Positions 1,619 through 61,287 of a DNA stretch of 64,000 nucleotides are shown here, in pieces (the stretch's first letter is position 1; each line of letters starts with the position of its first letter). Position numbers and translations under genes: made by a program. Location of the stretch: NCBI RefSeq assembly GCF_001592755.1, contig NZ_LUKF01000003.1, positions 1 through 64,000 on the forward strand, in the 5' to 3' direction. The stretch is from Bdellovibrio bacteriovorus (GTDB lineage: Bacteria; Bdellovibrionota; Bdellovibrionia; Bdellovibrionales; Bdellovibrionaceae). Below the pieces are notes generated by a model. The model did no database searches. It was not told where the DNA came from and was given only the letters and a program-made list of their open reading frames with translations.

Positions 1619-2239
1619 ATGGGTGGGGTACAAACAGCAACGAATACAGTTCAGTGGTACATTCTTCGTGGGGAAATGAAATATGGTCCCTACGAATATA
1701 AATCCCTGATCACGATGATCCAGAATGGCGAGCTCTTTGACTACAACTACGTCTGGGCTCCGCACATGGAAAATTGGACTCTGGTGGGTGACCTTCAAGA
1801 GTTTTCCAAAGACCGCCTTTGCCGCCTGATCGAGACGAAAGATCACCTTTCCGGCGCATTCAAAGAGCGTAAGTTCCCACGCGTAGACTTGGTAACTCCA
1901 GTTTACGCTCACAATGACCATACATTTTTTGACGGCAACACATTAAGTGTGAGCGAAAACGGAGCCTTGGTTCTTTTGAATGATCCTTTGCTTCAACTCG
2001 GTCAGAAAATCATGATTAATTTTAGAGTCTCTGAGAACAACCCTCAGACATTCAATGCTCTTTGCGAGATTGTTCGTAAGAACTTTTCAAAGCAAAGACT
2101 CAACGTAAAATCTGGTTTGCATTATGCAGTTCGTTTCCTCCAAGTGCAAGATCAGGGCATGGCGCAGTTAACAAAATGGACACGCGGTGGCGTTTCCAAG
2201 GAGGAAACAAATGATGGCATTCTTAAAGTTCATGAATGA
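1619..2239 (+). CDS. GYF_2-PilZ fusion protein, predicted c-di-GMP sensor
   Basis: A 206-residue cytoplasmic protein. Residues about 12-60 match the GYF_2 (DUF4339) domain pattern: WYI, GEMKYGPY, then VW and W. Residues about 80-195 look like a PilZ domain, with RKFPR (RxxxR) at about 83-87 and SVSENG where DxSxxG is expected, so Ser replaces the usual Asp/Asn. PilZ domains bind cyclic di-GMP; GYF domains bind peptides, and the myxobacterial gliding protein GltJ carries one. It starts 12 bases after the VWA gene behind an AAGGGG-type site, and its 3' end overlaps the motor gene by 29 bases. This suggests co-translation and a regulatory role on the motor. Ligand binding is not shown. Confidence 0.8.
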   Translation: MGGVQTATNTVQWYILRGEMKYGPYEYKSLITMIQNGELFDYNYVWAPHMENWTLVGDLQEFSKDRLCRLIETKDHLSGAFKERKFPRVDLVTPVYAHNDHTFFDGNTLSVSENGALVLLNDPLLQLGQKIMINFRVSENNPQTFNALCEIVRKNFSKQRLNVKSGLHYAVRFLQVQDQGMAQLTKWTRGGVSKEETNDGILKVHE

Positions 2240-2971: not shown

Positions 2972-3517
2972 ATGAGCAGACGCATTCGTAAGATTAAAAT
3001 TGATCACAATGGTGAGTTTGAGCTCGACTTAGCTCCGCTTCTTGCCGTGATGGTAAAACTTGTACCGGTACTTCTGGTTTCGTCAGCCTTCGTGCAAATG
3101 ATGGTGATCGAGTCTGAACTTCCGCAAGTTGTGAATGAAGCGATTCAACGTCAGGAACAACAGCCAACACCAACGAATATTTCCATCGAGCTGGAAACAT
3201 CAGGCATTAACATCGTCGTGACTGACAAAGGCCAGGACAAAGTAGAAACCATTCCCATGAAGAATGGTGCTTACGACTACGAGACACTGCACGCAAAACT
3301 TGTGGCCGTTAAGAAAGCTCATCCTGATATTTTCAAACTTGAGTTGCACCCGGATGGCAAAGTTCCGTATGACGAAGTGGTGAAGGTAATGGACGCTGCT
3401 CGTCAGGCGCGCGATACGAATGTGAAATTCCCTGTGTTCGACACCAAGCAAGGTAAGAACGTGGAAACAAACTACATGTTTCCAGAAATCGTTTTCGCCA
3501 ACATGATGGAGGGCTAA
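2972..3517 (+). CDS. TolR/ExbD-family protein lacking the membrane aspartate
   Basis: A 181-residue protein with a basic N-terminus, one membrane helix (about residues 20-42) and a periplasmic domain, as in TolR/ExbD. ExbD-type subunits carry an Asp near the start of the helix that couples proton flow. Here the matching residue is Ala25 (APLLAVMVKL) and a Lys sits in the helix at residue 29. The next gene keeps the Asp. The site AGGATGGGA precedes the ATG, and the gene follows the TolQ-like gene by 50 bases. It is probably a structural partner in a heteromeric stator, matching one of the paired AglR/AglS subunits of myxobacteria. That assignment is inferred. Confidence 0.85.
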   Translation: MSRRIRKIKIDHNGEFELDLAPLLAVMVKLVPVLLVSSAFVQMMVIESELPQVVNEAIQRQEQQPTPTNISIELETSGINIVVTDKGQDKVETIPMKNGAYDYETLHAKLVAVKKAHPDIFKLELHPDGKVPYDEVVKVMDAARQARDTNVKFPVFDTKQGKNVETNYMFPEIVFANMMEG

Positions 3518-3520
3518 AAC

Positions 3521-4024
3521 ATGTCACGCCGTCGTAGATATGAACTACCGACCAAGAAAAATTCGACTTTCACTTTGAATATCACATCAATGACCGACAT
3601 GTTCACAATCATGCTTGTGTTCCTGTTGCAGACATATTCAACGGCGGAAGTCCAAATCACTCCCGACAGTTCGCTACGCTTGCCGTCTTCGGCATCTATG
3701 GTGAATGCGACGGAGTCAGTTAAGATCTCTCTTTCCAGAGAAGCTCTTAAAATTGATCAAACAAAAATCGCAGACGTGAAAAACGCTGATTTTCTTCCGC
3801 AGGATCTAGAAGATAAAGATTCAAACTTTATCAAACCTCTTTTCCAAGAGCTGGATCGTTTGGCGAAGTCAGAGTCTGAAAAAGACAAAGCTTTCATTAA
3901 AGAAGGTCGTATCCTTCTGCAAGCCGATAAGGAGCTACCTTATGCGACCTTGCGCAAGGTTATGTACACAGCCTCTATGGCTGGCTTTCCTCAGTTGAAA
4001 CTTGTCACCTTAGTTGGAGAGTAA
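3521..4024 (+). CDS. TolR/ExbD-family proton-coupling subunit (AglR/AglS-like)
   Basis: A 167-residue TolR/ExbD-like protein. It has a basic N-terminus, one membrane helix (about residues 19-40) with the conserved Asp at residue 26 (SMTDMFTIML), and a periplasmic region. The helix is rich in Met, Phe and Thr. The start is three bases after the stop of the first ExbD-like gene; GGAGGG inside that gene's end serves as its ribosome site. This is the likely proton-coupling member of the pair. The last bases overlap the ribosome site of the long TPR gene, so the cluster is translated as a tight unit. Confidence 0.87.
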   Translation: MSRRRRYELPTKKNSTFTLNITSMTDMFTIMLVFLLQTYSTAEVQITPDSSLRLPSSASMVNATESVKISLSREALKIDQTKIADVKNADFLPQDLEDKDSNFIKPLFQELDRLAKSESEKDKAFIKEGRILLQADKELPYATLRKVMYTASMAGFPQLKLVTLVGE

Positions 4025-4028
4025 GTTT

Positions 4029-7000
4029 ATGATGCGCACAGTGGTTCTACTTCTAGCATTTCATCTGTTTTCAATGTATTGCTTCGCTGCGGATAAAAAC
4101 GCCAAAGGCCTGTTGCCGGAAGTGCGTTTGAATAGTTCGAACGAAACAGAAAACGAGAAAAAAGCTTTCAGCAGTGAGGTGATGATCACCCGCTCTGAAA
4201 ACAAGGCCATTGAATCACTGCAAAGTATCATCAAAAAGAAAAAAGGCTCTAAAGACGAGGCGGATCTATGGTATCGCCTGGCCGAGCTTTACATGCGCCG
4301 CTCAAAATCCGGCCGTTTCTTTGACTTACACCAAGACACTCGCCTAGCAAAACTTTCTCCGTTCCCAGTAGCCAATGAAAAAGGTTCTGAGGCGGTTAAA
4401 AGAGCTATTAAAATCTATACGAAAATTGAATTGGACTTCCCAGGCTTCAAACAAATGGACGCCGTCCTTTTCAATAACGCCTTTGCAAATCAGCAAGTGG
4501 CGCAATACAAGCAGTCGCATCTTCTTTACGAGAAGCTTTTGACTCGCTTCCCAAAATCTCCATTGATTGCTGACGGTACATTGGCTGTCGGCGAGCTTCT
4601 TTATGACCAAGGGAAATTTAAAGAGGCTTTAGAGCATTTCTTAAAAGTAGAAAAATTCCCAAACAGCCGCGTTTACTCTTACGGTATGTATAAGGCCGCT
4701 TGGACTTACTACAATCTTCGTGACAGTGATAACGGTATTAAAAAACTTGTTGAGGTGGTTAGAACAAATCCTCCTCTTCAAGATGGTGAAGTTCCAACAA
4801 ACAGACACAATCTTCGCCGCGAAGCTCTTCGCGACTTAACTGTATTTATTGGTGACTCCTACCCTGCAAATAAACTTTATTCTTTCTTTGAAGACATCAC
4901 GACCGAAGACGAAATGGGTCAATCAATGATTGATCTAGCGAAACTGTATGAATCACACAGTCGTCAAAAAGAGATGAACACGTTCTTGGGTGAATACATC
5001 GACAAGCGTCCTTCAGGACCTGAAGTCGTTCGCGCCCATCTTTTCTTGGTGGATGCCAACGAAGATCTTAAAAAACGTGACCTTGTGATCGACCATATGC
5101 ATATGGCGAGCGACCTGTGCCGTCGCGATTCGACTTGGAGAAATCTGCAAAAAGCCGACGTCGCTAAAGAATCCTGCGATACGTCTTTCCGCACGACAAG
5201 TTTGGAAATGGCGAAAAAATGGTGGGAGATCTGGCTTAAGAACAAACAAAATGCTGAATTCTCGGATTTGACTCTGCGTTTGTTCAAATTGATGTTGGAT
5301 AACGAAGATCCGACAAAACCTGATTTAAAAACTCGCTTTGCTTACGCCGAGCTTCTGTTCCAATTAAACAGATTTGACGAAGCAAGTACTCAGTACAAAA
5401 TGGTCGGCGATAAATCCACTGACGAAACTATGCGCCATGACGCGAACTACGCGACTCTTTACGCCAAAGAAAAGTCTATTGAAAAGGGCAAAGATCCTTT
5501 GAAAGAGGCAGAACGCAAGGAATTGGCTGCCAATTATTTGGCGAAGCACCCGACAGGCAAGTTTGCGACTTTGGTGAAATTCAAAATGGGCCACATTGCC
5601 TATGAAGAAAGTAATTACCCTGAAGCTGAAAAATGGTTGAAACCCTTGGCTCAGCTTAAAGGCAATGAGAATGCGGATATCAAAAAGAAATCCGAAGACT
5701 TGATCTTGGATATGTTGAACATCCGCAAAGACTACGCGGGAATCAAAAACTTCTCGAAACAAGTGATGACTTCAACAGCGGATGAAGACCGCAAGAAGAA
5801 CATGAATAAAATCATGGAAGAGGCTCACTTCACTGAGATTCAAGAGTTCGCAAAAACCGGCAACAAAGATCAAGCTTCACAAAAGCTGATCGCGTTCGCC
5901 AAAGAACATGAGTCTTCAAAACTTTCACAAGATGCCTTGTGGCAAGCCCTGAGCCTTCTTTACTCTGAAGGTAAAGTCTTTGAAGCCGCAGATCTGTCTT
6001 TGAAATTCGTGGAAAAATATCCTAACGACAAACGTAACTTGGATGCTTTAAAAGAAGCCGCAAAAGCTTACGCCGATGTAGGACAGATTTCTAAATCAGC
6101 TGAAACTTTGGTGAAAATCGCGGACCTTGATAAAAAAGGTCGCAACACTCACCTAGAGCTTGCGGCAGACATCTATCTTCTAGAAAAGAAGATGAAAGAA
6201 GCCCGTGCTGCTTATAACGGGATCTTGGCTGCGGCGGACAATAAAACATTGAGCCGTATCTACGGAAAGCTTTTAGATTCTTATAAAGGTGAAAACCGCG
6301 GATCTGAATACGATAAGTTGCAAAACCAAATCATGGCAAAAGGTATTGAACCTTATACCACTGAAATCATGATTGACCGTGCAAAAGCGCTATTGGATTC
6401 AGGCAAAACTACGGCCGCATTTGAACTTTCCATGAAAGCCAATGGCCGTGATGTGCCGGCGGAAGTGCGCGCGGAAGCTCGCTTGATCCAGGCTCGCGTC
6501 CTTGAAAAAGAGTTGGTAGCTCAAAGCGTGAAAGCCCGCGAAGAAAAATTCGCTCTGGTACTTTCAATGAAGACAGAAAAGTTGGATAAAGCCCACACGG
6601 CTTACTTCACGACTTTGAAAATGTCGAAAGATCCTTACCAACAATTGGAAGCCATGCGTGGTATCGACCGTTGTTACGCAAACTTCATTGATAGCTTAAC
6701 AACAATGCCACTTCCGGCGTCTCTTTCCCCTGCCGATCAGGAAGCTCTTCGTGGTGAAATCGCGAAGTTGACAGCACCGATCCAGGAAAAGAAAAACGAA
6801 AACGAAGCGAAGTTGAAAGTGTTGGCGGCGTCAAAAGGTCAAACTGCAGAAAGCGAACGCTCTTATGCAAGTTTGCGTGTCGATCAGACCGTAAGTCCGA
6901 TGGCACAATATCCTGAAGCTAGCAAAATGACAGCCTTCTTGCCGGCGTCTATGGATATGACGATCGGGAAAGTGTCTCGTTATGAGACTTCCAAAGCGAA

Positions 7001-7742
7001 AAATTGCAATCGTTCCGCAATCATGACGGCTCAATTGCAGAATTTGAATCCGCTCGAAGTTGCAGGAAATTGTTATTCTTCTAGACAGTACGAAATGGTC
7101 GAAAGACTCGGTTTGGAACTTGCGAAGAATAAGGACACACGGGCTCTTGGTTTGTTCTATGCAAGCTTGGGCGCGGAAGGTAAGGGTTTTGAAAGCAAAG
7201 CTTTGTGGATGATTGAAGCCGCGATGAAAGTACAACCGGAAGTTTCTCCGTTCGTGTACCAAAAAGCACGCTTGATTTACAAAGCTGATGGCTTGAATGA
7301 AGCAATGCCGTTTTTCGAAAAAGTTTTAGACATGCAAATGCCTTCAACAGAAATGCAAACTTTCGCTGGAGTGAAGGCTTTCTCAGAGGGAGATTTTACT
7401 AGAGCAATTGAAAAATTCTCTTCTCTGAATAAAGAACAGTTGTATACTTTAAATGTGGGAACCTTGATGAGTGAGTCTTACGCTCAGAAGGGCGAAGTCG
7501 ATAAAGCTCTCAGCACTTTGAAAGATTTGTTGAGCTTTAAAAAGGACAACGCAGACTTCTTGTTGCAACAAGCACATATCTTCGAGACCTACAAACAGAG
7601 TCCAACGCTTGCGCTGGATTCTTATGAAAGAGCTTTTAAAGCCAGTCAGAAAATGGATATGAGAGACTGGTTAGGTAAGAAAATACAATATTTGAAAACA
7701 CAAAACAAAGTCGGTCAGCACGTTATCTCGGGAGACTTGTAG
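4029..7742 (+). CDS. Large periplasmic TPR protein (GltD/AgmU-like candidate)
   Basis: A 1237-residue exported protein. The signal peptide is about residues 1-20 (MMRTVVLLLAFHLFSMYCFA). The rest is helical with many degenerate tetratricopeptide repeats across the length, for example around residues 140-235, 430-520 and 1040-1220. I chose the ATG at 4029 because GGAGAG at 4016-4021 lies seven bases upstream; a reading from 4014 would hide the signal peptide. Long periplasmic TPR proteins such as AgmU/GltD join the inner-membrane motor to outer-membrane parts in Myxococcus gliding. Size, export and neighbours fit that role, but the family match is by architecture only. Confidence 0.82.
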   Translation: MMRTVVLLLAFHLFSMYCFAADKNAKGLLPEVRLNSSNETENEKKAFSSEVMITRSENKAIESLQSIIKKKKGSKDEADLWYRLAELYMRRSKSGRFFDLHQDTRLAKLSPFPVANEKGSEAVKRAIKIYTKIELDFPGFKQMDAVLFNNAFANQQVAQYKQSHLLYEKLLTRFPKSPLIADGTLAVGELLYDQGKFKEALEHFLKVEKFPNSRVYSYGMYKAAWTYYNLRDSDNGIKKLVEVVRTNPPLQDGEVPTNRHNLRREALRDLTVFIGDSYPANKLYSFFEDITTEDEMGQSMIDLAKLYESHSRQKEMNTFLGEYIDKRPSGPEVVRAHLFLVDANEDLKKRDLVIDHMHMASDLCRRDSTWRNLQKADVAKESCDTSFRTTSLEMAKKWWEIWLKNKQNAEFSDLTLRLFKLMLDNEDPTKPDLKTRFAYAELLFQLNRFDEASTQYKMVGDKSTDETMRHDANYATLYAKEKSIEKGKDPLKEAERKELAANYLAKHPTGKFATLVKFKMGHIAYEESNYPEAEKWLKPLAQLKGNENADIKKKSEDLILDMLNIRKDYAGIKNFSKQVMTSTADEDRKKNMNKIMEEAHFTEIQEFAKTGNKDQASQKLIAFAKEHESSKLSQDALWQALSLLYSEGKVFEAADLSLKFVEKYPNDKRNLDALKEAAKAYADVGQISKSAETLVKIADLDKKGRNTHLELAADIYLLEKKMKEARAAYNGILAAADNKTLSRIYGKLLDSYKGENRGSEYDKLQNQIMAKGIEPYTTEIMIDRAKALLDSGKTTAAFELSMKANGRDVPAEVRAEARLIQARVLEKELVAQSVKAREEKFALVLSMKTEKLDKAHTAYFTTLKMSKDPYQQLEAMRGIDRCYANFIDSLTTMPLPASLSPADQEALRGEIAKLTAPIQEKKNENEAKLKVLAASKGQTAESERSYASLRVDQTVSPMAQYPEASKMTAFLPASMDMTIGKVSRYETSKAKNCNRSAIMTAQLQNLNPLEVAGNCYSSRQYEMVERLGLELAKNKDTRALGLFYASLGAEGKGFESKALWMIEAAMKVQPEVSPFVYQKARLIYKADGLNEAMPFFEKVLDMQMPSTEMQTFAGVKAFSEGDFTRAIEKFSSLNKEQLYTLNVGTLMSESYAQKGEVDKALSTLKDLLSFKKDNADFLLQQAHIFETYKQSPTLALDSYERAFKASQKMDMRDWLGKKIQYLKTQNKVGQHVISGDL

Positions 7743-7756
7743 TATGGAGGGTACAA

Positions 7757-8005
7757 GTGAAAACTATCATCACAGCGATGATCGCTTTCATTCTCTTGGG
7801 AACAGCGACTGCCTTTGCCAAACAAAGAACAGTCCGTAAAGTCCAGGAAGTCAATTTCGGTGAGATGAACCTTAAGGGAACGATTCGTAACCCTGATGGG
7901 GCCTATCTTGTGCAAAAAAGAGGTATCAAATTCATGCCTCTTTATGATGTGCAAAAAGATATGGATGGCCGCATCCGTGAATCCGCTCTCTATTTGAATA
8001 ACTAA
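7757..8005 (+). CDS. Small exported protein of the gliding-like operon
   Basis: An 82-residue protein with a signal peptide (about residues 1-21, ending AFA) and a mature part of about 60 residues with no Cys. It starts with GTG, supported by GGAGGG at 7746-7751 five bases upstream. It lies 14 bases after the TPR gene and 14 before the FHA/TonB-tail gene, so it is clearly within the operon. I do not recognise the family. The mature sequence has a polar beta-rich pattern (NLKGTIRNPDGAYLVQKRG), which could make it a small periplasmic accessory subunit. Confidence 0.75.
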   Translation: MKTIITAMIAFILLGTATAFAKQRTVRKVQEVNFGEMNLKGTIRNPDGAYLVQKRGIKFMPLYDVQKDMDGRIRESALYLNN

Positions 8006-8019
8006 TTCAGAGGTGTCAC

Positions 8020-9483
8020 ATGCTCACGTTGATTGTACGTCAGTCCCTGAAAAATGGGACGGCAAAAACTTGGAAGCTGCGCTCAAATAATACAACTCAC
8101 ACCTTCGGTTCATCCCGCTTGGCGGATGTGATTTCAATCGCTCCGGGCACCAAGGGTATTCAAGGTCTTTTTGAATACCGTGACAACCAATGGTGGTATG
8201 TCAATATGGACTTAATGACAAGTGCGAGTAGCGCTGACTCCCCGGCTTTGTCTTTGGATAAAGAAAAAAGTCTGCAACTTGAAGACTGCGAATTGAAGTT
8301 CACACCGGTGAAAAAAGAAACAGATCTTTATCTGCGTCTTGAAAAAGCGGGACAAGAACAACGTGAAGCGGCTAAGCAATTCCAACTTTATATCGTCCGT
8401 CAGGCCGGTAAAGTTGTTGAAACTAAAGTTCTTCCATTAAAAAAGAAATTTAAACCTGCTGTTGGTATCAACGTCGCAGCGATTGCCTGCGTGCCTTCAC
8501 AAGAATGGCACAAGCAAACTGTGGGCGAACTTGAGATCAGCCAAAGAACTGTTTCTTTGGAAGATGCCGCAAGAATGGGTCATATCACAGCAAGCCAATT
8601 GGTCGACGAAGAGTCCAAACGCGGTCTTTACATCGTGTTGGGCGCGGCGTTCTTCCTTGTGACTGTGGGTATCTTTTCGCCGAAGCAAGAGACGATGGAA
8701 ACGGTGGCAACACCTCCCAAAGCAGCACAAAAAATCATTGTAAAAACAGAATTGAAACCCAAGCGTAAAAAAGCAGAAGCTCCACAACAAGTCGTTGTGA
8801 AAGAGTCTGCACCAGCAGCGGCTCCGAAAGTGGAAATGCCAACAAACGGCAGCCAAAGCAAGGTTTCAAAAATGATGAAATCCCTGACTGGCGGTCGTAT
8901 TTCTCAGTTGATCGGAAAAGTTTCCGCTCAAGCTGCAAAGAGCGGCAACGTCGTTTTTGCTAACGGCGTAAAAGCTGGTAACGGTGCTTCAGGTCGTGCC
9001 TTGGCCGCTGTTGGCGGGATGGAAAGATCCGGCCGTGACTGGGGTCAAGAAGGAACAGGCGCTGGCGTCGTGATTTCCACGGCTGGTAAAGGCGGCGGAA
9101 AAAGCGCTACGGGCATGGGTGGTTTGGCTGCAGGTAGCACTGGCAGTGCCGGTGTAGGTTTGATCGAAGAGGAAGGCGAAATCACTGGCGGTCTGGACCG
9201 TGAAGTGATCGCTCAATACATCAAATCAAAACTAGGTCAGATCCTTTATTGCTATGAAAGACAATTAAGTGCCAATCCGGATTTATTCGGTAAGGTCGCA
9301 GTGAAGTTTACAATCGGCCCATCTGGCGCCGTAGAACAACAACTTATTGGAGACACAACACTTAAGAACGCAACCGTTGAGGGATGTATATTGAATAGGG
9401 TTGCCGCATGGAAGTTTCCGAATCCACAGGGGGGAACTCGCGTGCTAGTGACATATCCATTCTTATTCAAGAGTACAAACTAA
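8020..9483 (+). CDS. FHA-like / TM / TonB-C-terminal linker protein (GltG-like)
   Basis: A 487-residue inner-membrane protein spanning the envelope. Residues about 1-100 look like a cytoplasmic FHA-type beta domain (GSSRLADV, then a WWYVNM strand). One membrane helix lies at about 206-222 (YIVLGAAFFLVTVGIF). Next come a Lys/Pro/Ala-rich linker (about 230-275), a Gly-rich stretch (about 310-390), and a TonB-like C-terminal domain (about 398-487) with LYCYERQL and a closing YPFLF strand. This order equals that of myxobacterial GltG, and the tail matches the AgmX/PglI C-terminal type. The protein should carry motor movement to the outer membrane. The Gly-rich stretch could act as a flexible tether. 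Confidence 0.85.
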   Translation: MLTLIVRQSLKNGTAKTWKLRSNNTTHTFGSSRLADVISIAPGTKGIQGLFEYRDNQWWYVNMDLMTSASSADSPALSLDKEKSLQLEDCELKFTPVKKETDLYLRLEKAGQEQREAAKQFQLYIVRQAGKVVETKVLPLKKKFKPAVGINVAAIACVPSQEWHKQTVGELEISQRTVSLEDAARMGHITASQLVDEESKRGLYIVLGAAFFLVTVGIFSPKQETMETVATPPKAAQKIIVKTELKPKRKKAEAPQQVVVKESAPAAAPKVEMPTNGSQSKVSKMMKSLTGGRISQLIGKVSAQAAKSGNVVFANGVKAGNGASGRALAAVGGMERSGRDWGQEGTGAGVVISTAGKGGGKSATGMGGLAAGSTGSAGVGLIEEEGEITGGLDREVIAQYIKSKLGQILYCYERQLSANPDLFGKVAVKFTIGPSGAVEQQLIGDTTLKNATVEGCILNRVAAWKFPNPQGGTRVLVTYPFLFKSTN

Positions 9484-9497
9484 GGCGGGGGTAATAC

Positions 9498-10247
9498 ATG
9501 TTGAAGAAAACACTTTTAATGATCATCTTGGCTGCATCGCAAGCATTCGCACAGCAAGGCGCTGACACGAAACCAGCTACGAACGCAGACCAAAGAGGCA
9601 GCGATAAACTGGACATTAAAAAACTAGAACAAAAATACTGGGCGGCGAAAGATGACGACTTCAGTGTCGTACAAAACCGTCGTTACACGAAAGCGGACAG
9701 ATTCTATCTAACCCTGGCTGGCGGTGTTCCTATCAATGACCCGTTCGGTAAAGGTTCGATCACGGGAGCTCAGTTGGGTTACTTCTTCAACGAACGTTGG
9801 GGCGTTGATGTGAGTTACCAAAAAGTGAACATGGAAGACAACGACAGTACGAAGCAGTTCAAAGAAGACAACTTAACTTCTCCGAACTACAACTTCATTG
9901 ATTCATCAACAATGTTGTCGGTCACCTATGTTCCTCTTTACGCAAAAATGAGCTTCGTTGACAAAGCCATCATCTATTTCGATATGGGTATTTCTTTGGG
10001 TGTGGGTACGACAGATTACCTCATCAAAAAAGAAGAAGGCGATGAAAAGAAAAACGGCATGACTTACCAAATCGGTATCAATCAGCAGATTTTCTTCTCG
10101 GAGCACTTCGCGATTCGTGCGGACTTCATCAATAAGTTCACAAACGAAGAGCGTATGAAATACAGCACGATCGCACCAGACCGCGATATGGGGTCTAAAA
10201 TGGTGAACGATACGTCTTTAATGGTGGGTATCACGTATTGGCATTAA
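9498..10247 (+). CDS. Outer-membrane beta-barrel protein (GltA/GltB-like candidate)
   Basis: A 249-residue exported protein. The signal peptide is about residues 1-18 (ending AFA). After a charged N-terminal segment, alternating strands typical of a small outer-membrane barrel run from about residue 62 to the end (FYLTLAGGVPI, GAQLGYFFNERWGVDVSY, LMVGITYWH), with an aromatic-rich last strand as expected for barrel insertion. It lies 14 bases after the TonB-tail gene, behind a GGGGG site. Myxococcus gliding uses small barrels (GltA, GltB), so this is the likely outer-membrane terminus of the complex. Barrel type is seen; partner identity is inferred. Confidence 0.8.
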   Translation: MLKKTLLMIILAASQAFAQQGADTKPATNADQRGSDKLDIKKLEQKYWAAKDDDFSVVQNRRYTKADRFYLTLAGGVPINDPFGKGSITGAQLGYFFNERWGVDVSYQKVNMEDNDSTKQFKEDNLTSPNYNFIDSSTMLSVTYVPLYAKMSFVDKAIIYFDMGISLGVGTTDYLIKKEEGDEKKNGMTYQIGINQQIFFSEHFAIRADFINKFTNEERMKYSTIAPDRDMGSKMVNDTSLMVGITYWH

Positions 10248-10270
10248 TTTTCTCCATGGGTGGGGGATTT

Positions 10271-12403
10271 ATGTTTAAGCCTTTAAAAATTTCGATTGCT
10301 GTAAGCCTGGTGTGTGGGACTGCTTTTGCAGACCCCGCACTGACTGTGAAAAAATCAGGCCGTGCTCCAGCAAGCACTCTCAAAGTAAAATCAAGCCTTG
10401 TTCCTACTTTTGATGTGTATCAAAAGAAAGTCGTTAAAGGAAAAGTGGAAGTTTTTAAAGTTAAAAACATTCCTCTTTTAGACTTGGGTGAAGAGCGCGA
10501 GGTTCAAGCGTCGGTGTTAAGTCCGCTGCGCCTCCCCGCTTCCCGCGAAGTGGAACTTAAGGAAACACGTCGTCGTGAATCTTTGAATGTCATGCAAATC
10601 CAATTGGCTCCGTACAACGAAGTGGTGAATGCTCCGAAGGCAGTCACTTCTGCGGAAGCCTTTAACAAGATTCCGGATATAAAAATCTTGAATCCTGTGA
10701 TGGAGCCTGTCACTAAAGATCCTTTGGTGCAATTGGCGAAAATGGACGACATGCAGCCAAATGACTACAAACTTTTGCAAGCTTTGATCTTCTTGGAAAT
10801 TCAAAAGAAGTATGAACTTGCCATGGGTCTTTTTGCCGAGTTGATGGAAGATCCTGAACATCGTATTCAGGCTCTTTATAACTATGCCATGACGGCCAAA
10901 GGCATGGGTTTAAACTCGGAATTCCGTCAGTACATGATTCAGTTGGCGCAAGAGACTAAAGACAAGATGTGGCAGCAAAAAGCCACGGAAGCTTTGGTGA
11001 AGCATATCAATGTGCTTGAAACTTCTGACATCGCTTTGATTGATCCTTTGGTGATCAAATACGAAATCGATGTGACGAAGAATGAAGAGTATCAATTGAC
11101 ACGTGCGAAGCACTATTCAGACAAGGGCCAATTGGGCTTGGTTGAAGATGCTTTGATGTACATCTCTGAAAAGTCCCCTCTTTATCCGGATTCACTTCTT
11201 TTGACGGCGTTGTTCAACTACCGTCAAGGTAAAGTGGACGACGCGACTATTCAGTTGGAAAAACTGATGGCCGCAACGGATGGCAACAAAACTTTGCAGC
11301 TTCGTTCCGTCGCCGCACTGACTTTGGCGCGCATCCAGTTCCAAAAAGGTGACTATAAAGATGCGTTCCAATCTTACTTGAAAGTCGATAAGTCCAACCC
11401 TCTTTGGTTGCAAGCGATGGTTGAAAGCGCTTGGACACAAATCTTGGGTGAAGACTATGAAGGTGCTGCTGGGAATATGTTCTCGTTGCACACAGACTTC
11501 TTTAAGAATGCCTTTTCGCCAGAGTCTTACGTTGTTCGTACCGTCGGTTACTTGAATCTGTGCCAATACGGTGACGGCGTGCAAGTGCTGAACGAGATGA
11601 ACAAAAAGTATGCTCCTTGGAAGAAGAAATTAGAAGACTACCAAAAAGCTCACAAAGACTCTTTGACGTATTATGATACGGTGAAAAACTGGATCAAAAA
11701 CTCAGATCTTAAAGAGGTGGATGGTCTTCCCCGCTCTTTCATCGTTGAATTGGCTCGTCACCCGGCTTACATGAGCGTGCAAAAACAAATCAATGCTTAT
11801 GAAGACGAAATCGTTCGCTTCAACAAGATTGCTTTGACGCTGATTAAAATGGAGCGCGAGTTGATCGCAAAACAAAATGAAGCGAATAAAGACTTGGCTT
11901 CCGCGAAAAAAGGTATCAAAGGCGACTCTCCTTCTGAAAGCGCTATCGCCAGCGTTCAAGAAGCCGAGAAAAAACTTTTGAGCTATCGCATCCAATACCA
12001 CATCGCTAAAAAAGCGCGTGTGTCGATCAAGAATTTAAGATCACAAGGTATTGCGCGAATTGAAAAAGAAAAATCCGTTCTTCGTGCCCAAGCTTCTCAG
12101 GCCCTTGCTGGTCGTTTCAATGAAATGCTGGCAGGTTTGAATAAGGTTTTGGATCAAAACGAAGTCTTGCAATACGAATTGTATTCCGGTGCCGGTGAAC
12201 ATCTTCGCTACCAAATGGCAGGTGGAGATGTGAACGAAAAAGAACGTCCCGAGTTGAAAGTTCAAAAAGAAAAAAGTTTGAACTGGAAATTCAAAGGTGA
12301 AATCTGGGAAGACGAAGTGGGTCACTATCGTTCTTCTTTGAAAAATGTCTGCCCGCAAGAGAATGGCTCTAACGGCGGCGTAGCTGGTTTGTCTGAACAA
12401 TAA
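10271..12403 (+). CDS. Periplasmic TPR/coiled-coil protein (GltE-like candidate)
   Basis: A 710-residue exported protein. The signal peptide is about residues 1-20 (ending AFA). A middle region with TPR-like helices (about 150-420) is followed by a long charged coiled-coil stretch (about 500-640). I chose the ATG at 10271 because the GGGGGA run ends three bases before it and the signal peptide then sits at the N-terminus; the open frame begins earlier at 10238 and overlaps the barrel gene. It is the second exported TPR protein of the operon, as in Glt clusters where GltD and GltE are both periplasmic. No catalytic motif was seen. Confidence 0.78.
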   Translation: MFKPLKISIAVSLVCGTAFADPALTVKKSGRAPASTLKVKSSLVPTFDVYQKKVVKGKVEVFKVKNIPLLDLGEEREVQASVLSPLRLPASREVELKETRRRESLNVMQIQLAPYNEVVNAPKAVTSAEAFNKIPDIKILNPVMEPVTKDPLVQLAKMDDMQPNDYKLLQALIFLEIQKKYELAMGLFAELMEDPEHRIQALYNYAMTAKGMGLNSEFRQYMIQLAQETKDKMWQQKATEALVKHINVLETSDIALIDPLVIKYEIDVTKNEEYQLTRAKHYSDKGQLGLVEDALMYISEKSPLYPDSLLLTALFNYRQGKVDDATIQLEKLMAATDGNKTLQLRSVAALTLARIQFQKGDYKDAFQSYLKVDKSNPLWLQAMVESAWTQILGEDYEGAAGNMFSLHTDFFKNAFSPESYVVRTVGYLNLCQYGDGVQVLNEMNKKYAPWKKKLEDYQKAHKDSLTYYDTVKNWIKNSDLKEVDGLPRSFIVELARHPAYMSVQKQINAYEDEIVRFNKIALTLIKMERELIAKQNEANKDLASAKKGIKGDSPSESAIASVQEAEKKLLSYRIQYHIAKKARVSIKNLRSQGIARIEKEKSVLRAQASQALAGRFNEMLAGLNKVLDQNEVLQYELYSGAGEHLRYQMAGGDVNEKERPELKVQKEKSLNWKFKGEIWEDEVGHYRSSLKNVCPQENGSNGGVAGLSEQ

Positions 12404-12419: not shown

Positions 12420-13067
12420 ATGAAATTCTCTAAATCAATTTTAACAGTTGGCGTTTTGATGAGTCTTAGTACTGCGGCTTTTGCGCAGACAACCGCTAAA
12501 GAAGGTTTGGATCGCATCAAAGCCAACTTGAATAACTCCAAAGCCAATCTGACGGAATACGAAAAGAATCTGAAAACCGTTGAAGGCAATATTCAAGAAG
12601 TTGGCAAAGCCAAATCCCAAGTAGAAGGACAACAAAAACAAGTTCTTCAACAGGTCGAAGAAAACAACCAGGCAATGACGAAAATCAGCAGCCAGGAAAA
12701 AGAACTTCAGGCTTTGATGAATGAAGAAAAAACGAAGACAGCGCAGGAAAACCAAAAGATTGCTGAACTTGAAGCGATGATTGCTAAGATCAAAGAGAAT
12801 CAGAAAAAACGTGAAACGAATGTTTCTGACTATCAAATGCAAATGAATCAGCTTCAGGAAGAAAAGAAAATCTGGCATTCGCGCGCGGGCAACCTGAAAG
12901 AGCAAAACGATCAGGTGAACCAACGCCTTCGTTCTTTAGCGAGCGAAGAAAAAGAATGGCAAGCGAAGCAAAAAGGTTATCAAGGCGAAGTGAAACGTTG
13001 GAGCAAAGAAGTCGAAAGACAGCAGAAAATTAGTGATAGTTATAATTCACTAGCTGAAGTTAAATAA
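12420..13067 (+). CDS. Periplasmic coiled-coil protein
   Basis: A 215-residue exported protein. The signal peptide is about residues 1-21 (ending AFA). Nearly all of the rest is a continuous coiled coil rich in Gln, Glu and Lys, without Cys. An AAGGAAAGGA site precedes the ATG by nine bases, and the gene starts 16 bases after the TPR gene. It is the last gene of the operon and is followed by a strong terminator. A rod or spacer role in the envelope complex is plausible. I do not recognise a named family. Confidence 0.78.
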   Translation: MKFSKSILTVGVLMSLSTAAFAQTTAKEGLDRIKANLNNSKANLTEYEKNLKTVEGNIQEVGKAKSQVEGQQKQVLQQVEENNQAMTKISSQEKELQALMNEEKTKTAQENQKIAELEAMIAKIKENQKKRETNVSDYQMQMNQLQEEKKIWHSRAGNLKEQNDQVNQRLRSLASEEKEWQAKQKGYQGEVKRWSKEVERQQKISDSYNSLAEVK

Positions 13068-13231: not shown

Positions 13232-14857
13232 ATGTCTCTAAAGTCATGGTTTCAAGGTATCCGCGGAAAATTGCTCTTTGCAGCTGTTCTTCCGATGATC
13301 GGCTTTACAACAATTTATTTTATCTCTCACTCGGGAATGTCGGACTTGGGTAAAGGCATCGAAACTGCCAACAACGACGTCATTCCTAGCATTCAAGGGC
13401 TGGGCGATATGCGCCAAGCGCGCAATGCTTTCGGTTATCAGACCTATGCCGCTATGGCACAGCATGATCCGAAAAAGCGTGAAGCCCATATCACGATCGC
13501 CAAAGAAGCCGTCGCAAATTTAAAGAAAGCGATCGACTTCTATGAGTCTTTCCCCTTCACTCCCGAAGCCGAAAAACTCTGGGCTCCCAGTCGCCCGATT
13601 CGCGCAGACTACTTTGCGACGCTAGAAAAAGTTACGCAGCATCTGGATGAAGGTGCGAACGACAAAGCCATGGCTCTTATGCAGGGACCTGTCTGGGATT
13701 ACGGTACAACCATCAATAAAGTGACTTCAGATTCTTTGAACTACTATCGTGAAAGAGTCAAAGTAGAAACAGCTCGTGCCACTGAAACATTGTCTCGTGC
13801 TGACAAAATGTTAATGACGATCACTTTAGTTTCTTCATTCGCGATCTTCGCCCTTTTATTATGGTTAGCAGCAAAAATTGCGAACTCAGTAGCTTCGATT
13901 GCAAGTCGTTTGAGTGGCGCGGGCAACCAAGTGGCTTCGGCGGTGGAACAGTTGAACGAAGCTGGCAATAGCCTATCACAATCTTCAACTGAAGCAGCGG
14001 CTTCTTTGGAAGAAACAGTGGCCGCCCTTGAAGAAATGAGCTCGATGGTACAAATGAATTCCGACAACGCGAAGCAAGCAGCGGCCCTTTCTGCTTCGTC
14101 AAAAGATGCCGCGGAAAGCGGCGAACGCGAGATTCAAACACTGATCCAATCCATGACAGAGATTTCAAAATCTTCTAAAAAGATCGAAGAGATTATCTCT
14201 GTGATCGATGACATCGCCTTCCAAACAAACTTGTTAGCTTTGAATGCGGCCGTTGAAGCGGCTCGTGCTGGTGAACAAGGTAAAGGATTCGCGGTTGTGG
14301 CTGAAGCCGTTCGCACATTAGCCCAAAGAAGTGCGGCAGCAGCAAAAGACATCACAGTGCTTATTAAGGATTCCGTTTCTCAGATTGATCACGGTAGCGA
14401 CATCGCAGATAAGAGCGGCGCGGTTTTAACGAACATTGTAAGCTCGGTTAAAAAAGTATCTGATCTTAATAATGAGATTGCGGCGGCAAGTTCCGAGCAA
14501 ACAACTGGAATTCAGCAAATTAGCAAAGCGATGAATCAGCTCGATCAAGCAGCTCAGTCCAACGCCGCTTCTGCTGAAGAAATCGCAGCGACAAGTGGTG
14601 AGATCAATAATCTTGCAGCGACGAACCAGAACTTAACTGTTGAGCTGAATACCGTTATCTTAGGTGGAGACGCGACGGTGGCTTCGACTCCTGCTGAAGC
14701 GAAGGTTAAAGGCGCCACAAGAATGAAGACCTCAAGCAAAGTTATTCCCTTTAAATCGGCAAAACCGATGGCGGTAGCGAAGAAGTCTGAATCTCAAGCA
14801 ACAATCCCGTTCGACGATGATGAACGGGCTAAAGTCGGAAGTACCGACGGATTTTAA
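13232..14857 (+). CDS. Methyl-accepting chemotaxis protein 1
   Basis: A 541-residue transmembrane receptor. The first helix is at about residues 14-32, followed by a four-helix-bundle-type periplasmic domain (about 33-190), a second helix (about 192-212) and a cytoplasmic coiled-coil signalling domain. The hairpin tip motif ([20 protein letters not shown]) binds CheA and CheW in this family. No clear HAMP domain is seen between the second helix and the signalling region. The protein ends in a Lys/Pro-rich tail closing with STDGF. AAGGAA lies upstream of the ATG. It is one of three adjacent paralogues; the periplasmic parts differ, so they probably sense different ligands. Confidence 0.95.
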
Positions 14858-14883
14858 TACTTCTCAATAAAGTTAACTTTACA

Positions 14884-14913
14884 AACCCCTCACTTCGTCG
14901 AGGGGTTTTTTAT
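14884..14913 (+). terminator. Intrinsic terminator after MCP 1
   Basis: An 8-bp GC-rich stem (AACCCCTC pairing with GAGGGGTT) and a TTTTTTATTTT tail, 27 bases after the stop codon. Confidence 0.9.
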
Positions 14914-15029
14914 TTTCGAAACACTAGTTATCAAGATTCAGTAAAACTGGACTCCCTGTTTGACCCTAAAATCCGATTAAAATTCTACGAATTATTAAGG
15001 CACGCTAACAATTGATGGGAGTCAAAACA

Positions 15030-16661
15030 ATGAATCAAAACAAACTTGCAGCCTGGTTTAGTGGCATACGTGGTCGCTTACTTTTAGCGGCGTTCGTACC
15101 GATGATCGGATTCACCATCGTGTTCAGTGTGGCACTGAATGGCTTGGATAAAACCAATGTCATGCTTGAAGATGCTCACTCCCTTATCATTCCGAACTAT
15201 AAGTACATCGGTGAAATGCGCCAAGCGCGTAATAAATTCGGTTATCGCAGTTGGGCTGCCATAGATGCAGTGAACGAACCGCAAGTGCGCACGAAACAGT
15301 TAGATACCGCGAGCGAAGGTGTCGACGAATTCGAAGCCGCTTATAAGCACTATACAGAGGCGCGCTTTCTTCCGGGCGAAGAAAAGATCCATGACACTGT
15401 CAAAGACACCATCCCCCATTTTTTAAAGGTACAAAGAGACATCATCGCCTTATTGCGCACGGCAGAGCCCGATAAAGTCGCCGAAGCCAAAAAACTTTTG
15501 AATGGAAAATTTGGCGAACTCAACACCATTGTACGTGATTTCAATGATAAAATCGAAACCGTCTATCACCAACGTGCCGATGACGATAGCAAGCTTGCCA
15601 AAGAAACCCGCGCGCAAGTTTTCAATATCCTTCTGGCTGTTTCATTATTTTCCGCACTGGGCATTTTTGGATTGATGGTGTGGATGTCTTCGCGTATTGC
15701 CAACTCCGTGAGCTCTATCGCCGACCGTCTGACGTCGGCAGCGACTCAGGTAGCCACTTCCGTTGAACAGCTGAATGAAGCCGGAAATAGCCTATCGCAG
15801 TCATCTACCGAAGCCGCAGCTTCGCTAGAAGAAACCGTCGCTTCATTAGAAGAAATGACATCCATGGTGCAAATGAATTCCGATAACGCAAAACAAGCAG
15901 CGGCTCTTTCGGCAAGCTCCCGAGAGTCCGCTGAAAACGGCGAAAAAGAGATTCAAAACTTGATTCAATCCATGACCCAAATATCTCAATCATCGAAGAA
16001 AATTGAAGAAATCATTCACGTCATCGATGACATTGCCTTTCAGACCAACCTTCTCGCGCTGAACGCGGCCGTCGAAGCCGCCCGCGCTGGTGAACAAGGC
16101 AAGGGATTTGCGGTCGTAGCTGAAGCAGTTCGATCATTAGCGCAACGAAGTGCCGCTTCGGCAAAAGATATCTCAAGCCTTATTAAGGACTCTGTATCGC
16201 AAATCGAAACTGGAAGCGAAATCGCCGATAAGAGCGGTGCTGTTCTAACGAATATAGTAAATTCCATTAAAAAAGTTTCGGATCTGAACACAGAGATCGC
16301 GACAGCCAGTGCGGAACAAACAACAGGTATTCAACAAATCAGTAAAGCCATGAACCAGTTAGATCAAGCCTCACAGTCCAATGCCGCTTCTGCAGAAGAA
16401 ATCGCGGCGACCAGCGGAGAGATCAACAATCTGGCAATAACATCGCAAAAACTCACAGTCGAGTTAAACACCGTGATCCTGGGTGGCGCCGCTTCGTCGA
16501 CGCCTCCAGCAGAAAATAAACCGACTGCAAAATCGTCGGTAACAAAATTTACTAAACAAACTTCGAAGATAAACAAAACTATCACCTCGACTGCCGCAGC
16601 TTCAGTGATCCCATTTGAGGACGACGAACGGGGTAAAGTTTCTTCTGTTGACGGATTTTAG
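15030..16661 (+). CDS. Methyl-accepting chemotaxis protein 2
   Basis: A 543-residue MCP with the same plan as its neighbours: TM1 at about residues 18-36, periplasmic four-helix-type domain, TM2 at about 196-214, no clear HAMP, then the signalling coiled coil with the conserved tip ([20 protein letters not shown]). The tail ends SSVDGF. I chose the ATG at 15030 because GGGAG (15017-15021) lies eight bases upstream and the N-terminus then lines up with the other two receptors ([11 protein letters not shown]); an upstream TTG at 15012 adds six residues. Codon choice in the signalling region differs from MCP 1 although the protein is nearly identical there, so the duplication is not recent. Confidence 0.95.
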
Positions 16662-16696
16662 TTCGGTCTCCACCCTCCATGCGATGGAATACTTGT

Positions 16697-16728
16697 AAAT
16701 ATCTCGGGGCAACCCGAGATATTTTTTT
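16697..16728 (+). terminator. Intrinsic terminator after MCP 2
   Basis: A perfect 12-bp stem (16697-16708 with 16713-16724), GCAA loop and T-run to 16728. Confidence 0.93.
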
Positions 16729-16797
16729 GACCGGGTCTTGAGCTTTTTTCAGAACAACCGAAAACGTTGGCTCCGATAGTTAAAGGAGCTTAACAAA

Positions 16798-18414
16798 ATG
16801 AATTTCGCGTCTTGGTTTCGTGGTATTAAAGGTAAATTATTATTCGCAGCGGTTCTTCCCGTCATTGGTTTTGGCGTGATGGGCTTCATCTCATTTAACG
16901 GTGCAAACCGTTTAAATGCGCTTTTAGAGAGTTCACACAAGAATTTGATCCCCAACCTTCAGATCTTAGCTCAAATGCGTCTTGCCCGCGCGAATTTCGG
17001 TTACCATGCGTTTGCCTCCGTAACGACATTGCAACAGCCTGAAATCTTCGCTGATGAACTAAAACAAACAAAAGACGCTATTGCGCTCTTTTCTGACGGA
17101 TACAAAGATTATGAAGACTCTTCGTTCATGCCAGAAGAAGAAAAGAAGTTCTTGAGCGTGAAGGAGTACTATCCTCAGCTCATCACAACGATGGAAAATA
17201 TCGTCCAACTGCTTGAGACCAAAGACCAACAGAATATCGACAAAGCTCATAAAATGTTGTTAGGTGAATTCTATAAGCTGGGTTTACCAATTGGGTCTTT
17301 CAACCGCGAAACAGTGGCTCTTTACAACACACGCGCTAAAGAGGAAAGCGTGAGTGCTGAAGCGACTCAGGCCTCTGTTGTTCAATGGACACTGGTAGTG
17401 ACTTTGACGGCAACGTTTGCAATCTTCGGTATTCTGCTGATCATTGCAGCTCGCGTATCGAGCTCTGTGTCGTCTGTGGCGTCCCGCCTTTCTGTGGCTG
17501 GTGGTCAAGTGACTTCGGCGGTCGAACAATTAAATGAAGCTGGGAACACGCTTTCTCAATCTTCAACGGAAGCAGCGGCTTCTTTAGAAGAAACTGTGGC
17601 ATCACTCGAAGAGCTTTCTTCCATGGTGCAAATGAATTCCGACAATGCAAAACAAGCGGCGGCCCTTTCAATGACTTCTCGTGAAGCCGCTGAAAAAGGC
17701 CAAGCAGAAATCGGCAACTTGATCCAAGCTATGTCGACGATTTCATCTTCGTCTAAAAAGATCGAAGAGATCATTTCCGTGATCGACGATATCGCTTTCC
17801 AAACAAACTTGTTGGCCCTGAATGCCTCCGTAGAAGCGGCTCGTGCTGGTGAACAAGGTAAAGGTTTCGCGGTTGTTGCTGAAGCGGTTCGTGCCTTAGC
17901 ACAAAGAAGTGCCGTGGCCGCCAAAGACGTTGAAGTTTTGATTAAACAATCTGTCGTGCAAGTTGAAGACGGAAGCCGTATCGCCAACCAAAGTGGCGAA
18001 GTGCTAACAACAATTGTTAATTCCGTCAAAAAAGTGTCGGATCTGAATAATGAGATTGCAACTGCAAGTTCTGAACAGACAGCAGGTATTCAGCAAATTA
18101 ACAAAGCTATGAATCAGTTGGATCAAGCAGCCCAAGCCAACGCGGCTTCTGCTGAAGAAATCGCAGCAACAAGTGGAGAAATCAACAACCTTGCCGTGAC
18201 TTCACAAAATCTAACAGCGGAATTGAGCCATGTTGTCAATGGCGGCGCGCAAGAAACTACTTTCACCGCGCCTCCTGCTGGCAAACCTTCAACAACGAAG
18301 CACAATGTGGTTTCATTTAAACCGAAGGCCAAAGCAAAAACGGCTTCAGCCAAAGAAACTATTCCGTTTGATGAAGAGACTAGAGCCCGCGTCGGAACAA
18401 CGGACGGATTTTAG
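16798..18414 (+). CDS. Methyl-accepting chemotaxis protein 3
   Basis: A 538-residue MCP with TM1 at about residues 12-32, a periplasmic four-helix-type domain, TM2 at about 198-218, and the conserved signalling tip ([20 protein letters not shown]). Here one usual Ala is Ser, the only visible change in that motif among the three paralogues. The tail ends TTDGF. AAAGGAG lies about ten bases upstream of the ATG. Unlike its neighbours it has no terminator; its last 35 bases overlap the convergent 3' end of murJ. Confidence 0.95.
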
Positions 18415-20290: not shown

Positions 20291-20656
20291 TTAAGTAGTG
20301 CCCGGCGCGATATCAGTTCGTGCCGACACGAAAGAACGAATCTGTCTTTTGATAGAAAATTCGATTTCATTGAAGCTAAGACCATGGGTGACTCTTTCGT
20401 CACCCTGTTTTTTTTGTGTCGATCGCACCACCGCTCTCAAGAACACAAATTCCCCGGCCGGAACTTGAAAACTCACCACCAGTGAGTGCCCTTCCGTCAG
20501 AACATAATCCGAAATAATAGACATTCCCCCTTCACCGATCTCGCCTGATTCACAGACGAAATAGGATCCGTCACAAAGCACACCGATTTTGCGCTTCATA
20601 GCCCGTCTTGGATATTGACGGCGGAAATAACCTTTATCTTCAAATGATTTGTCCAT
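20291..20656 (-). CDS. PilZ-domain protein
   Basis: A 121-residue single-domain protein. Residues about 10-20 hold RRQYPRRAMKRK, fitting the RxxxR cyclic-di-GMP motif. The second motif (DxSxxG) reads EIGEGG, so Asp and Ser are replaced and binding may be altered. I chose the ATG at 20656 because ATAAGG lies about six bases upstream; a start at 20674 would add six residues. It follows holA by 33 bases on the same strand, so lptE, holA and this gene probably form one transcript. Confidence 0.82.
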   Translation of the reverse strand: MDKSFEDKGYFRRQYPRRAMKRKIGVLCDGSYFVCESGEIGEGGMSIISDYVLTEGHSLVVSFQVPAGEFVFLRAVVRSTQKKQGDERVTHGLSFNEIEFSIKRQIRSFVSARTDIAPGTT

Positions 20657-60174: not shown

Positions 60175-61287
60175 TTGAAACAATGGATGAAAAAACTTGT
60201 TGAGCAGTTTGATATGGACTGGGGCACTTCATCCCATGAAAAAGGAGCTTCGTCAGCCGGTCCCTCTTTGACGGAGGATCGCGCAACTTTGCTCTATATC
60301 CTTGATGTTTACAACAAGCACCTCTTTGAAATTCAAAACCACTCGGTGCGCAAAGTGCGCGCGAAGTTAGATACGTTCGCTAAAGAGCTGGTACAGGCCG
60401 ACACGGAAGCCACCGAAAAAACTCTGTTCCGTCTTCGTCAGTTTATTTCTAGCTACCGTATTGATGAATACACCTACGTGCAAAACACATTTGATGACTT
60501 TAAACGCATCATCTGGGATTTCGCTGATCATTTAAGCGAAGAAGCCCAAGTTGAAGATGCGTCACAAGCCGATATCAATCAAAGCCTTGAAGGCTTGCGC
60601 GAGGCCGTTGAATCCAACTCTATTGAAGAGCTGCGGGCGCGCTCTAGAGAATTCATTAACTTCTATTTAAAGCATCAGAACTCGACGAACGAACGCCGTT
60701 CAAAGCGCATGGAATCCATCAAAAAGAATCTGACTACGGTCAAAAAGCAATTGATGGAAGCCAATCAGACAATGCGTCGGGACCATATGACGGGGGCTCA
60801 CAACCGTCGTAGCTACGACGAACAAGTGCGTCGCTATTTGCAGTTGCATGATATCGACAAGGATCCAATGACCTTGATTCTTTTAGACATCGATTTCTTT
60901 AAAAAGATCAACGATGCCTACGGACACGACATCGGAGACTTCGTGCTAAAAGAATGCGTGCGTCTGCTTCAAGAAAGCTTTTCGCGCGAAGAGGACTTTA
61001 TTGCCCGCCTGGGTGGTGAAGAGTTTGCCGTGATTCTGCCGGGCTGTAATACCGAGGCGGCCATCAAGATGGCGGAAGAAGCGATGAACCGCATCCGCAA
61101 AGAAGTCTTCGTGCAAGATAAACTGGAGATTCGTTTTACAATCTCCATGGGGATTGCTGAAATCACCCCGGGTGAGTCCGCTGATAGCTGGTACAAACGC
61201 GCCGATGAAGCCCTTTACGAATCCAAGCAAACGGGCCGCAACAAATACTCATTAGCCAAAGCCCCGGGAATGAAACGGGTCGCTTAA
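60175..61287 (+). CDS. Diguanylate cyclase (GGDEF) with I-site, TTG start
   Basis: A 370-residue cytoplasmic protein. An N-terminal helical region (about residues 1-205) is followed by a GGDEF domain (about 205-365): RDHMTGAHNRRSYDEQ, ILLDIDFFKKINDAYGHDIGD and ARLGGEEFAVILPG. The signature GGEEF is intact, so it should make cyclic di-GMP. REED five residues before it fits the product-inhibition I-site (RxxD). The TTG at 60175 is chosen because AGGAGG is six bases upstream; the next ATG (60187) is 18 bases away. It could feed the PilZ proteins encoded earlier in the window. Confidence 0.93.
   Translation: MKQWMKKLVEQFDMDWGTSSHEKGASSAGPSLTEDRATLLYILDVYNKHLFEIQNHSVRKVRAKLDTFAKELVQADTEATEKTLFRLRQFISSYRIDEYTYVQNTFDDFKRIIWDFADHLSEEAQVEDASQADINQSLEGLREAVESNSIEELRARSREFINFYLKHQNSTNERRSKRMESIKKNLTTVKKQLMEANQTMRRDHMTGAHNRRSYDEQVRRYLQLHDIDKDPMTLILLDIDFFKKINDAYGHDIGDFVLKECVRLLQESFSREEDFIARLGGEEFAVILPGCNTEAAIKMAEEAMNRIRKEVFVQDKLEIRFTISMGIAEITPGESADSWYKRADEALYESKQTGRNKYSLAKAPGMKRVA

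Follow-up and report, generated by a model that had tools for sequence, protein, structure and literature searches.

In Bdellovibrio bacteriovorus HD100, deletion of dgcA abolishes gliding (PMC3271064), and the movement requires cGAMP made by DgcA/Bd0367, a Hypr enzyme, c-di-GMP alone not being enough (PMC9140294). A gliding operon of this strain spans Bd1473-Bd1483 (PMC2797640), and the PilZ gene at its 5' end, Bd1482, was named as a candidate receptor for DgcA (Hobley 2012, PMC3271064). Bd1483 is a MIDAS lipoprotein, deletion of which leaves predation unimpaired (PMC11003981), and bd1480, which is aglQ, is surface-induced and reduced in bd0367 mutants (PMC9140294). The VWA gene bd3099 is also reduced in bd0367 mutants (Lowry 2022, PMC9140294), and Bd3100 is a PilZ gene (PMC2797640). 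A different gene set, Bd0828-0838, has been preferred as the gliding apparatus, and GltJ, a GYF protein of the Myxococcus machine, has been reported absent from Bdellovibrio (PMC3169522). Flagellar MotA/PomA stators are targets of YcgR and PlzD, two PilZ proteins with RxxxR (PMC10653909).

The proposal of Hobley 2012 (PMC3271064) for Bd1482 is exactly the cyclic-di-GMP control of the motor that the original prediction on the present DNA did not know to be described. Within the literature searched, Bd1482 is named in that paper only, and the searches returned no bd1482 mutant, no identified receptor for the DgcA/cGAMP gliding signal, and no paper holding both "GYF domain" and PilZ; subscription papers lie mostly outside this literature, and they may include work on a mutant or on binding. 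The link to the motor had thus been proposed before, and what is new is a conservation reaching far beyond HD100, together with a putative docking site.

The GYF-PilZ gene and its operon

The window is a stretch of 64,000 nucleotides of B. bacteriovorus (contig NZ_LUKF01000003.1), and the operon under study lies near its start:

533-1606, + strand: VWA/MIDAS lipoprotein (Bd1483-type; CglD-like VWA), with lipobox LASC and DxSxS motif DNSGS; partner of GYF-PilZ
1619-2239, + strand: GYF-PilZ gene, 206 aa; by operon order the equivalent of Bd1482 in HD100
1655-1804, + strand: GYF_2 domain, residues 13-62 (Pfam; profile match to the GltJ/AgmX GYF 7z3c)
1868-2182, + strand: PilZ domain, residues 84-188 (Pfam)
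1868-1882, + strand: RxxxR motif, R84-R88 (family alignment)
1946-1963, + strand: second motif SVSENG, residues 110-115, its first residue S and not D/N
2211-2921, + strand: AglR stator subunit (MotA/TolQ/ExbB family), overlapping GYF-PilZ by 29 bases, with its own ribosome-binding site
2844-2918, + strand: AglR C-terminal tail, rich in proline, with APMATPPSPGTKVS at its end; putative GYF ligand
2972-3517, + strand: AglQ (ExbD/TolR family; Pfam), counterpart of bd1480 by order
3521-4024, + strand: AglS (ExbD/TolR family; Pfam)
4029-7742, + strand: GltD-like TPR protein (Pfam, operon HMM)
7757-8005, + strand: CglF/GltF-like small protein (NF033764, 3.7e-4)
8020-9483, + strand: GltG-like protein (NF033760, 1.7e-42) with an AgmX/PglI TonB-type C-terminal tail (NF033768, 3.7e-31)
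9498-10247, + strand: outer-membrane beta-barrel (OMP_myx_plus, 1e-26)
10268-12403, + strand: GltC-like TPR protein (NF033756, 1.5e-30)
12420-13067, + strand: coiled-coil protein at the operon end (sequence)

The predicted GYF_2-PilZ fusion with RxxxR is borne out, since both domains score above the curated Pfam cut-offs: GYF_2 (PF14237) with E 3.8e-10 and 39.8 bits against a gathering cut-off of 25.8, and PilZ (PF07238) with E 3.6e-12 and 47 bits against 22.5. The GYF_2 signature residues W, GP[FY], and W are present, and RxxxR reads R84-K-F-P-R88. The second PilZ motif is indeed modified as described, S110-V-S112-E-N-G115 standing in place of the canonical [D/N]xSxxG, so that an SxSxxG form remains with S and G retained. 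Membership of the PilZ family rests on the Pfam score, and the change in the second motif weakens no more than the case for canonical c-di-GMP binding; the replaced D/N could mean weaker or altered binding, a point against a receptor role. Across 101 aligned family members, both arginines of RxxxR are invariant (101/101), S112 is kept in 94 and G115 in all 101, and the conserved GYF positions are W13 (95/101), G23 and P24 (100/101), and W53 (99/101). The nearest named match is a protein of B. bacteriovorus strain kdesi at 86% identity, and the single-protein scan with the window GYF-PilZ reached three Bdellovibrio loci only.

Against the PDB, the family profile matched the AgmX/GltJ GYF 7z3c best (E 5e-6), followed by the BcsA PilZ domain (0.013). 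Bacterial GYF_2 structures may be few, so this match speaks for GYF homology and not for special kinship with GltJ. The parallel with the GYF domain of GltJ therefore stands at the level of domain homology and not for GltJ itself, whose reported absence from Bdellovibrio (PMC3169522) makes the parallel an analogy. Identity with GltJ was rejected: the protein has 206 aa with GYF and PilZ only, gives no NCBIfam GltJ match, and lacks the transmembrane segment and TonB-type SS tail. Assignment as a YcgR-type regulator was also set aside, GYF_2 preceding PilZ and no YcgR domain being found in Pfam. An AlphaFold2 model built from four sequences reached a mean pLDDT of 33 and was discarded.

The 29-base overlap with the next gene runs, as predicted, from ATG 2211, which is preceded by AAGGAGG, to the stop at 2239. 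Of the label "TolQ/AglQ-like" given to this overlapping partner, the TolQ-like part is upheld by a MotA_ExbB match (5.9e-26, Pfam), and the gene is assigned as AglR, AglQ being the gene that follows. The lipoprotein at 533-1606, taken by operon order as the Bd1483 counterpart, has a weak VWA match in Pfam and NCBIfam matches to a MIDAS adhesin (2.6e-15) and CglD (3e-12), neither of which reaches its equivalog cut-off. The equation of the window gene with Bd1482 draws on HD100 gene order and content pieced together from papers, not on the HD100 sequence. An FHA-like region at the N-terminus of the GltG-like protein was judged from the alignment alone. Scans for promoters, terminators, and RNA families gave no signal above chance, a mir-2943 match falling far below its gathering score. 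Directly after the operon, at 13232-18414 (+), lie three tandem genes whose translations resemble methyl-accepting chemotaxis proteins. Another PilZ domain, encoded at 20327-20623 (-) of the window in a 132-aa open frame, is unrelated to the operon.

Genomic linkage across the class and phylum

A search for the fusion in other genomes, as the original prediction had suggested, found a homologue (E<=1e-3) in 58 of 59 relatives. A family profile matched 132/143 class genomes at 1e-8 and 254/368 phylum genomes at 1e-15, and the relatives and class genomes together show that GYF-PilZ is not a chance occurrence. Neighbourhoods were picked by their GYF-PilZ matches, not by the neighbours, and were then searched with HMMs built from the operon. 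In 58 of 79 sampled genomes and 15 of 19 family groups, a GYF-PilZ copy lies less than 4 kb from Agl/Glt core genes; counted per gene (n=101), 61 stand within 4 kb of the Agl/Glt core, 60 have a VWA gene less than 2 kb away, and 87 are near at least one of the two. By this conserved linkage with the aglRQS/glt core (61/101 genes, 58/79 genomes), the protein classes as an Agl/Glt component.

The gene order varies around this association. Bdellovibrionaceae (f1) show VWA, GYF-PilZ, AglRQS, GltD and onwards; many other families of the class show GYF-PilZ, VWA, AglRQS, GltD; in f27 GYF-PilZ is divergent from VWA-AglRQS-GltD, and in f22, f23, and f25 it is placed after GltG. Other classes show PilZ-VWA-AglRQS-GltD (L132, L133) or OMP-GltC-GltD-GltG-PilZ (L135, L136, L143, L147). 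In three f10 genomes (G046, G051, G058) the operon falls into two halves, PilZ+VWA+GltD and PilZ+AglRQS+GltG, with GYF-PilZ in each (L068/L093, L070/L095, L069/L094). In f12 and f26, GYF-PilZ lies beside VWA, where VWA was found at all, with no core genes nearby, and at several loci of f10, f4, and f8 no VWA gene was detected. One ORF encodes GltD at most Bdellovibrionaceae loci, against two adjacent ORFs outside that family (L058, L061, L072, and others). Families f20 and f21 (L129, L130, L131) carry tandem GYF-PilZ genes, and the second tandem gene at L129:7153-9787 encodes 515 aa with two GYF domains and one PilZ. Other GYF proteins include a 1026-aa GYF-TPR protein in this genome (L169:2407-5484, -) and double-GYF proteins of 530-570 aa in other families (L170:6595-8184, L171:6862-8571).

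Among 143 class genomes, 108 hold both GYF-PilZ (E<=1e-30) and core GltG (E<=1e-80), 12 have PilZ without GltG, 3 have GltG without PilZ, and 20 lack the two (Fisher 2e-13), the fragmented GltG of G132 being counted as present; for genomes at least 90% complete the counts are 90/4/2/9 (Fisher 1e-8). The tally was made by hand with cut-offs set after the tables had been viewed, and these Fisher values ignore phylogeny. Eight small genomes (G108-111, G127-130) have neither gene. Conservation of the linkage extends over the class and partly over the phylum, and the linkage is very probably functional.

This genome has four Agl/Glt-type clusters, and GYF-PilZ occurs only in that of the window. The C14 cluster (L172) beats the window cluster on the Myxococcus models, with 248.5 vs 145.8 bits for GltG and 189.9 vs 106.5 for GltC, in line with the preference for Bd0828-0838 as gliding apparatus (PMC3169522). 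Bdellovibrio gliding may thus be driven by another cluster than that of the window, although bd1480 of the window-type cluster is surface-induced (PMC9140294), and both the restriction of GYF-PilZ to one cluster of four and the better fit of C14 count against a motor receptor.

Docking site, ligand, and partner of the putative receptor

GYF domains bind proline-rich peptides, and the AglR encoded next to GYF-PilZ is extended at its C-terminus, where the window protein ends in APMATPPSPGTKVS; by TolQ/ExbB topology this extension is presumably cytoplasmic. A PP occurs in the last 25 residues of 33 of 47 linked AglR proteins (24/24 in f1) and in none of 50 distinct tails of AglR paralogues from clusters without GYF-PilZ in the same genome set; these paralogues, taken from HMM-chosen ORFs, end soon after the last helix. 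The difference gives a Fisher value of 4e-15, which overstates the evidence, the proteins being related and PP having been picked with the tails in view. In f4, PP is found in 3/7 linked AglR, four linked and two unlinked proteins having none, and f5, f9, f10, and f27 have AglR without PP although GYF-PilZ is linked; these linked genes count against docking. The tail is thus a candidate GYF ligand, and docking of GYF upon it is a tentative idea, held with well under even confidence.

The reading favored here, somewhat better than an even bet, is that GYF-PilZ belongs to one Agl/Glt gliding-type machine as its dedicated receptor subunit for a cyclic dinucleotide. Its PilZ domain would bind c-di-GMP or 3',3'-cGAMP via RxxxR and xSxxG, and its GYF domain would anchor it to a proline-rich target in the cytoplasm, the likeliest being the C-terminal tail with PP of AglR, made from the overlapping next gene. 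Bound ligand would change how the AglRQS stator engages GltG and the VWA adhesin complex, and active DgcA would in this way permit surface gliding. Ligand binding, GYF-AglR docking, passage of the signal through GYF-PilZ, and the permissive direction of control are all presumed steps. On this view a second messenger probably switches surface movement by way of GYF-PilZ. That the window protein binds a cyclic dinucleotide at all is judged likely. Weighing against the model, the effects seen in bd0367 mutants could act by transcription without GYF-PilZ, and deletion of bd1483 causes no predation defect.

Part of the prediction on the partner was right, in that a PilZ gene is tied to the Agl/Glt motor by conserved linkage; the VWA lipoprotein is equally a partner. 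This genome has a second pair (L031), a GYF-GYF-PilZ protein with a VWA lipoprotein (30% identity to that of the window, 1e-43) and no motor beside. By locus numbers alone the pair is probably bd3099/Bd3100 of HD100, and if so, bd1480 and bd3099, both lower in bd0367 mutants, each lie in a GYF-PilZ locus. The tree sets the motor-linked f1 clade (support 100) apart from the solitary f1 clade (97), which joins the motor-linked genes of other families at 87, the deeper branching order being weak; the solitary Bdellovibrionaceae copy as the original and the motor copy as a later paralogue was considered, a history that may hold and that the tree does not settle. GYF-PilZ thus goes with the VWA/MIDAS lipoprotein no less than with the motor, for the duplicated pair stands in this genome once with the motor and once without, and the motorless paralogue counts against a motor receptor.

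Of the readings that compete over the partner, an accident of position, by which one of 19 PilZ genes in the genome (3.66 Mb, 20 contigs) came to precede a motor operon, would fit the lack of any such gene near the other three Agl/Glt clusters; it is refuted by a linkage kept in 15/19 family groups despite changing gene order and operon splits, and its likelihood is close to nil. The lipoprotein as the true partner, with GYF-PilZ controlling how a surface adhesin is exported, assembled, or activated and the motor linkage being secondary since the adhesin is part of the machine, is taken more seriously, though still as rather unlikely. Duplication of the pair away from any motor points that way, as do the VWA neighbor of 60/101 genes, the genes of f12 and f26 and one copy each in f20/f21 beside VWA with no core gene found nearby, and the lower expression of bd3099, numbered next to Bd3100, in bd0367 mutants. 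Direct contact is nevertheless impossible between a cytoplasmic protein and an outer-membrane lipoprotein, the split operons retain GYF-PilZ with AglRQS-GltG alone, and genes of f4, f7, f8, f22, f23, and f25 stand with core genes and no VWA detected beside them.

As for the ligand, the c-di-GMP input of the prediction keeps its motor-tied PilZ receptor and may have the wrong name, given the need of HD100 gliding for cGAMP (PMC9140294), which makes cGAMP a serious, if unproven, alternative. Position 110 is E in 45, S in 21, N in 4, and D in 3 of 77 class members, and D in 14, S in 5, and N in 2 of 24 outside the class, so D/N amounts to 7/77 vs 16/24 (Fisher 6e-8, phylogeny ignored). The DgcA-type protein of this genome reads HDHLFGS, its Ser taken, by reading of the motif, to be the PleD D344 position, and the Hypr serine (HLFGS) was read in the DgcA orthologue of 27/30 genomes searched (f1 and f3-f10); of the other three, G037 gave no match at the cut-off, and in G054 and G142 the motif was missed by the pattern. 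A specific 3',3'-cGAMP receptor for Hypr DgcA, in which loss of D/N would admit adenine and echo the Asp-to-Ser change of the cyclase, would agree with these counts, with the insufficiency of c-di-GMP alone, and with the contacts of the D of DxSxxG to base and pentose (PMC7288161). The correlation, however, comes from one class split, with DgcA Hypr status known inside the class only; position 110 is also E and N, the cGAMP effect may be transcriptional, and the literature searched yielded no cGAMP-selective PilZ receptor, so this specificity is unlikely. The fuller claim, GYF-PilZ as the missing Hypr-GGDEF/cGAMP receptor that licenses gliding, GYF-docked on the proline-rich stator tail and with D/N replaced to read cGAMP, is more doubtful again. 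Just as improbable is a PilZ that no longer binds nucleotides and acts as an adaptor between proteins, like the PilZ of FimX-PilZ-PilB, with GYF docking: the first residue of the second motif is not D/N in 70/77 class members, non-binding adaptor PilZ proteins exist (PMC7288161), and the RxxxR of YcgR is also part of a MotA-binding patch (PMC10653909), another possible cause of conservation. Yet both arginines, Ser, and Gly are kept (101/101, 101/101, 94/101, 101/101), E or S could still hydrogen-bond, and most relatives outside the class keep D/N.

Two further observations concern cyclases. HLFGS of DgcA occurs in nearly all class families tested (L243-L272), so cGAMP synthesis may be ancestral there. 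The window also holds a GGDEF domain at 60778-61245 (+), whose frame has 417 aa and whose motif reads GGEEF; the whole genome gave only four GGDEF matches, this one included.

Comparison with described systems

For the gliding switch of predatory bacteria, DgcA has been identified as the cyclase and cGAMP as the messenger, and GYF-PilZ adds one conserved receptor candidate, with the PP of the AglR C-tail as a specific docking-site candidate. The solitary paralogue, by numbering Bd3099/Bd3100, may be a backup that could mask single deletions. If the receptor model is true, PilZ control of stators would extend from flagella to the Agl/Glt family.

The closest described gene, Bd1482 of HD100, is likewise a PilZ gene at the 5' end of a gliding operon, after the VWA lipoprotein Bd1483 and right before the Agl genes; it differs in having received a candidate mention only, the literature searched containing no description of its GYF domain, its conservation, the AglR tail, or the paralogous pair. 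The DgcA/Bd0367 Hypr GGDEF pathway controls HD100 gliding and has a Hypr-serine orthologue in this genome, but DgcA is a cyclase and not a receptor. GltJ (AgmX) of Myxococcus xanthus shares a homologous GYF domain (7z3c) and membership of an Agl/Glt machine, whereas it is a membrane protein with a TonB-type tail (PMC3169522) and no PilZ. YcgR and PlzD share the RxxxR PilZ domain, and the putative target here is also a stator of the MotA/TolQ/ExbB superfamily; unlike them, the window protein carries GYF in place of the N-terminal YcgR domain and belongs with an Agl/Glt motor. The sense of the signal differs as well, being needed for movement in HD100 gliding, whereas YcgR and PlzD slow their motor.
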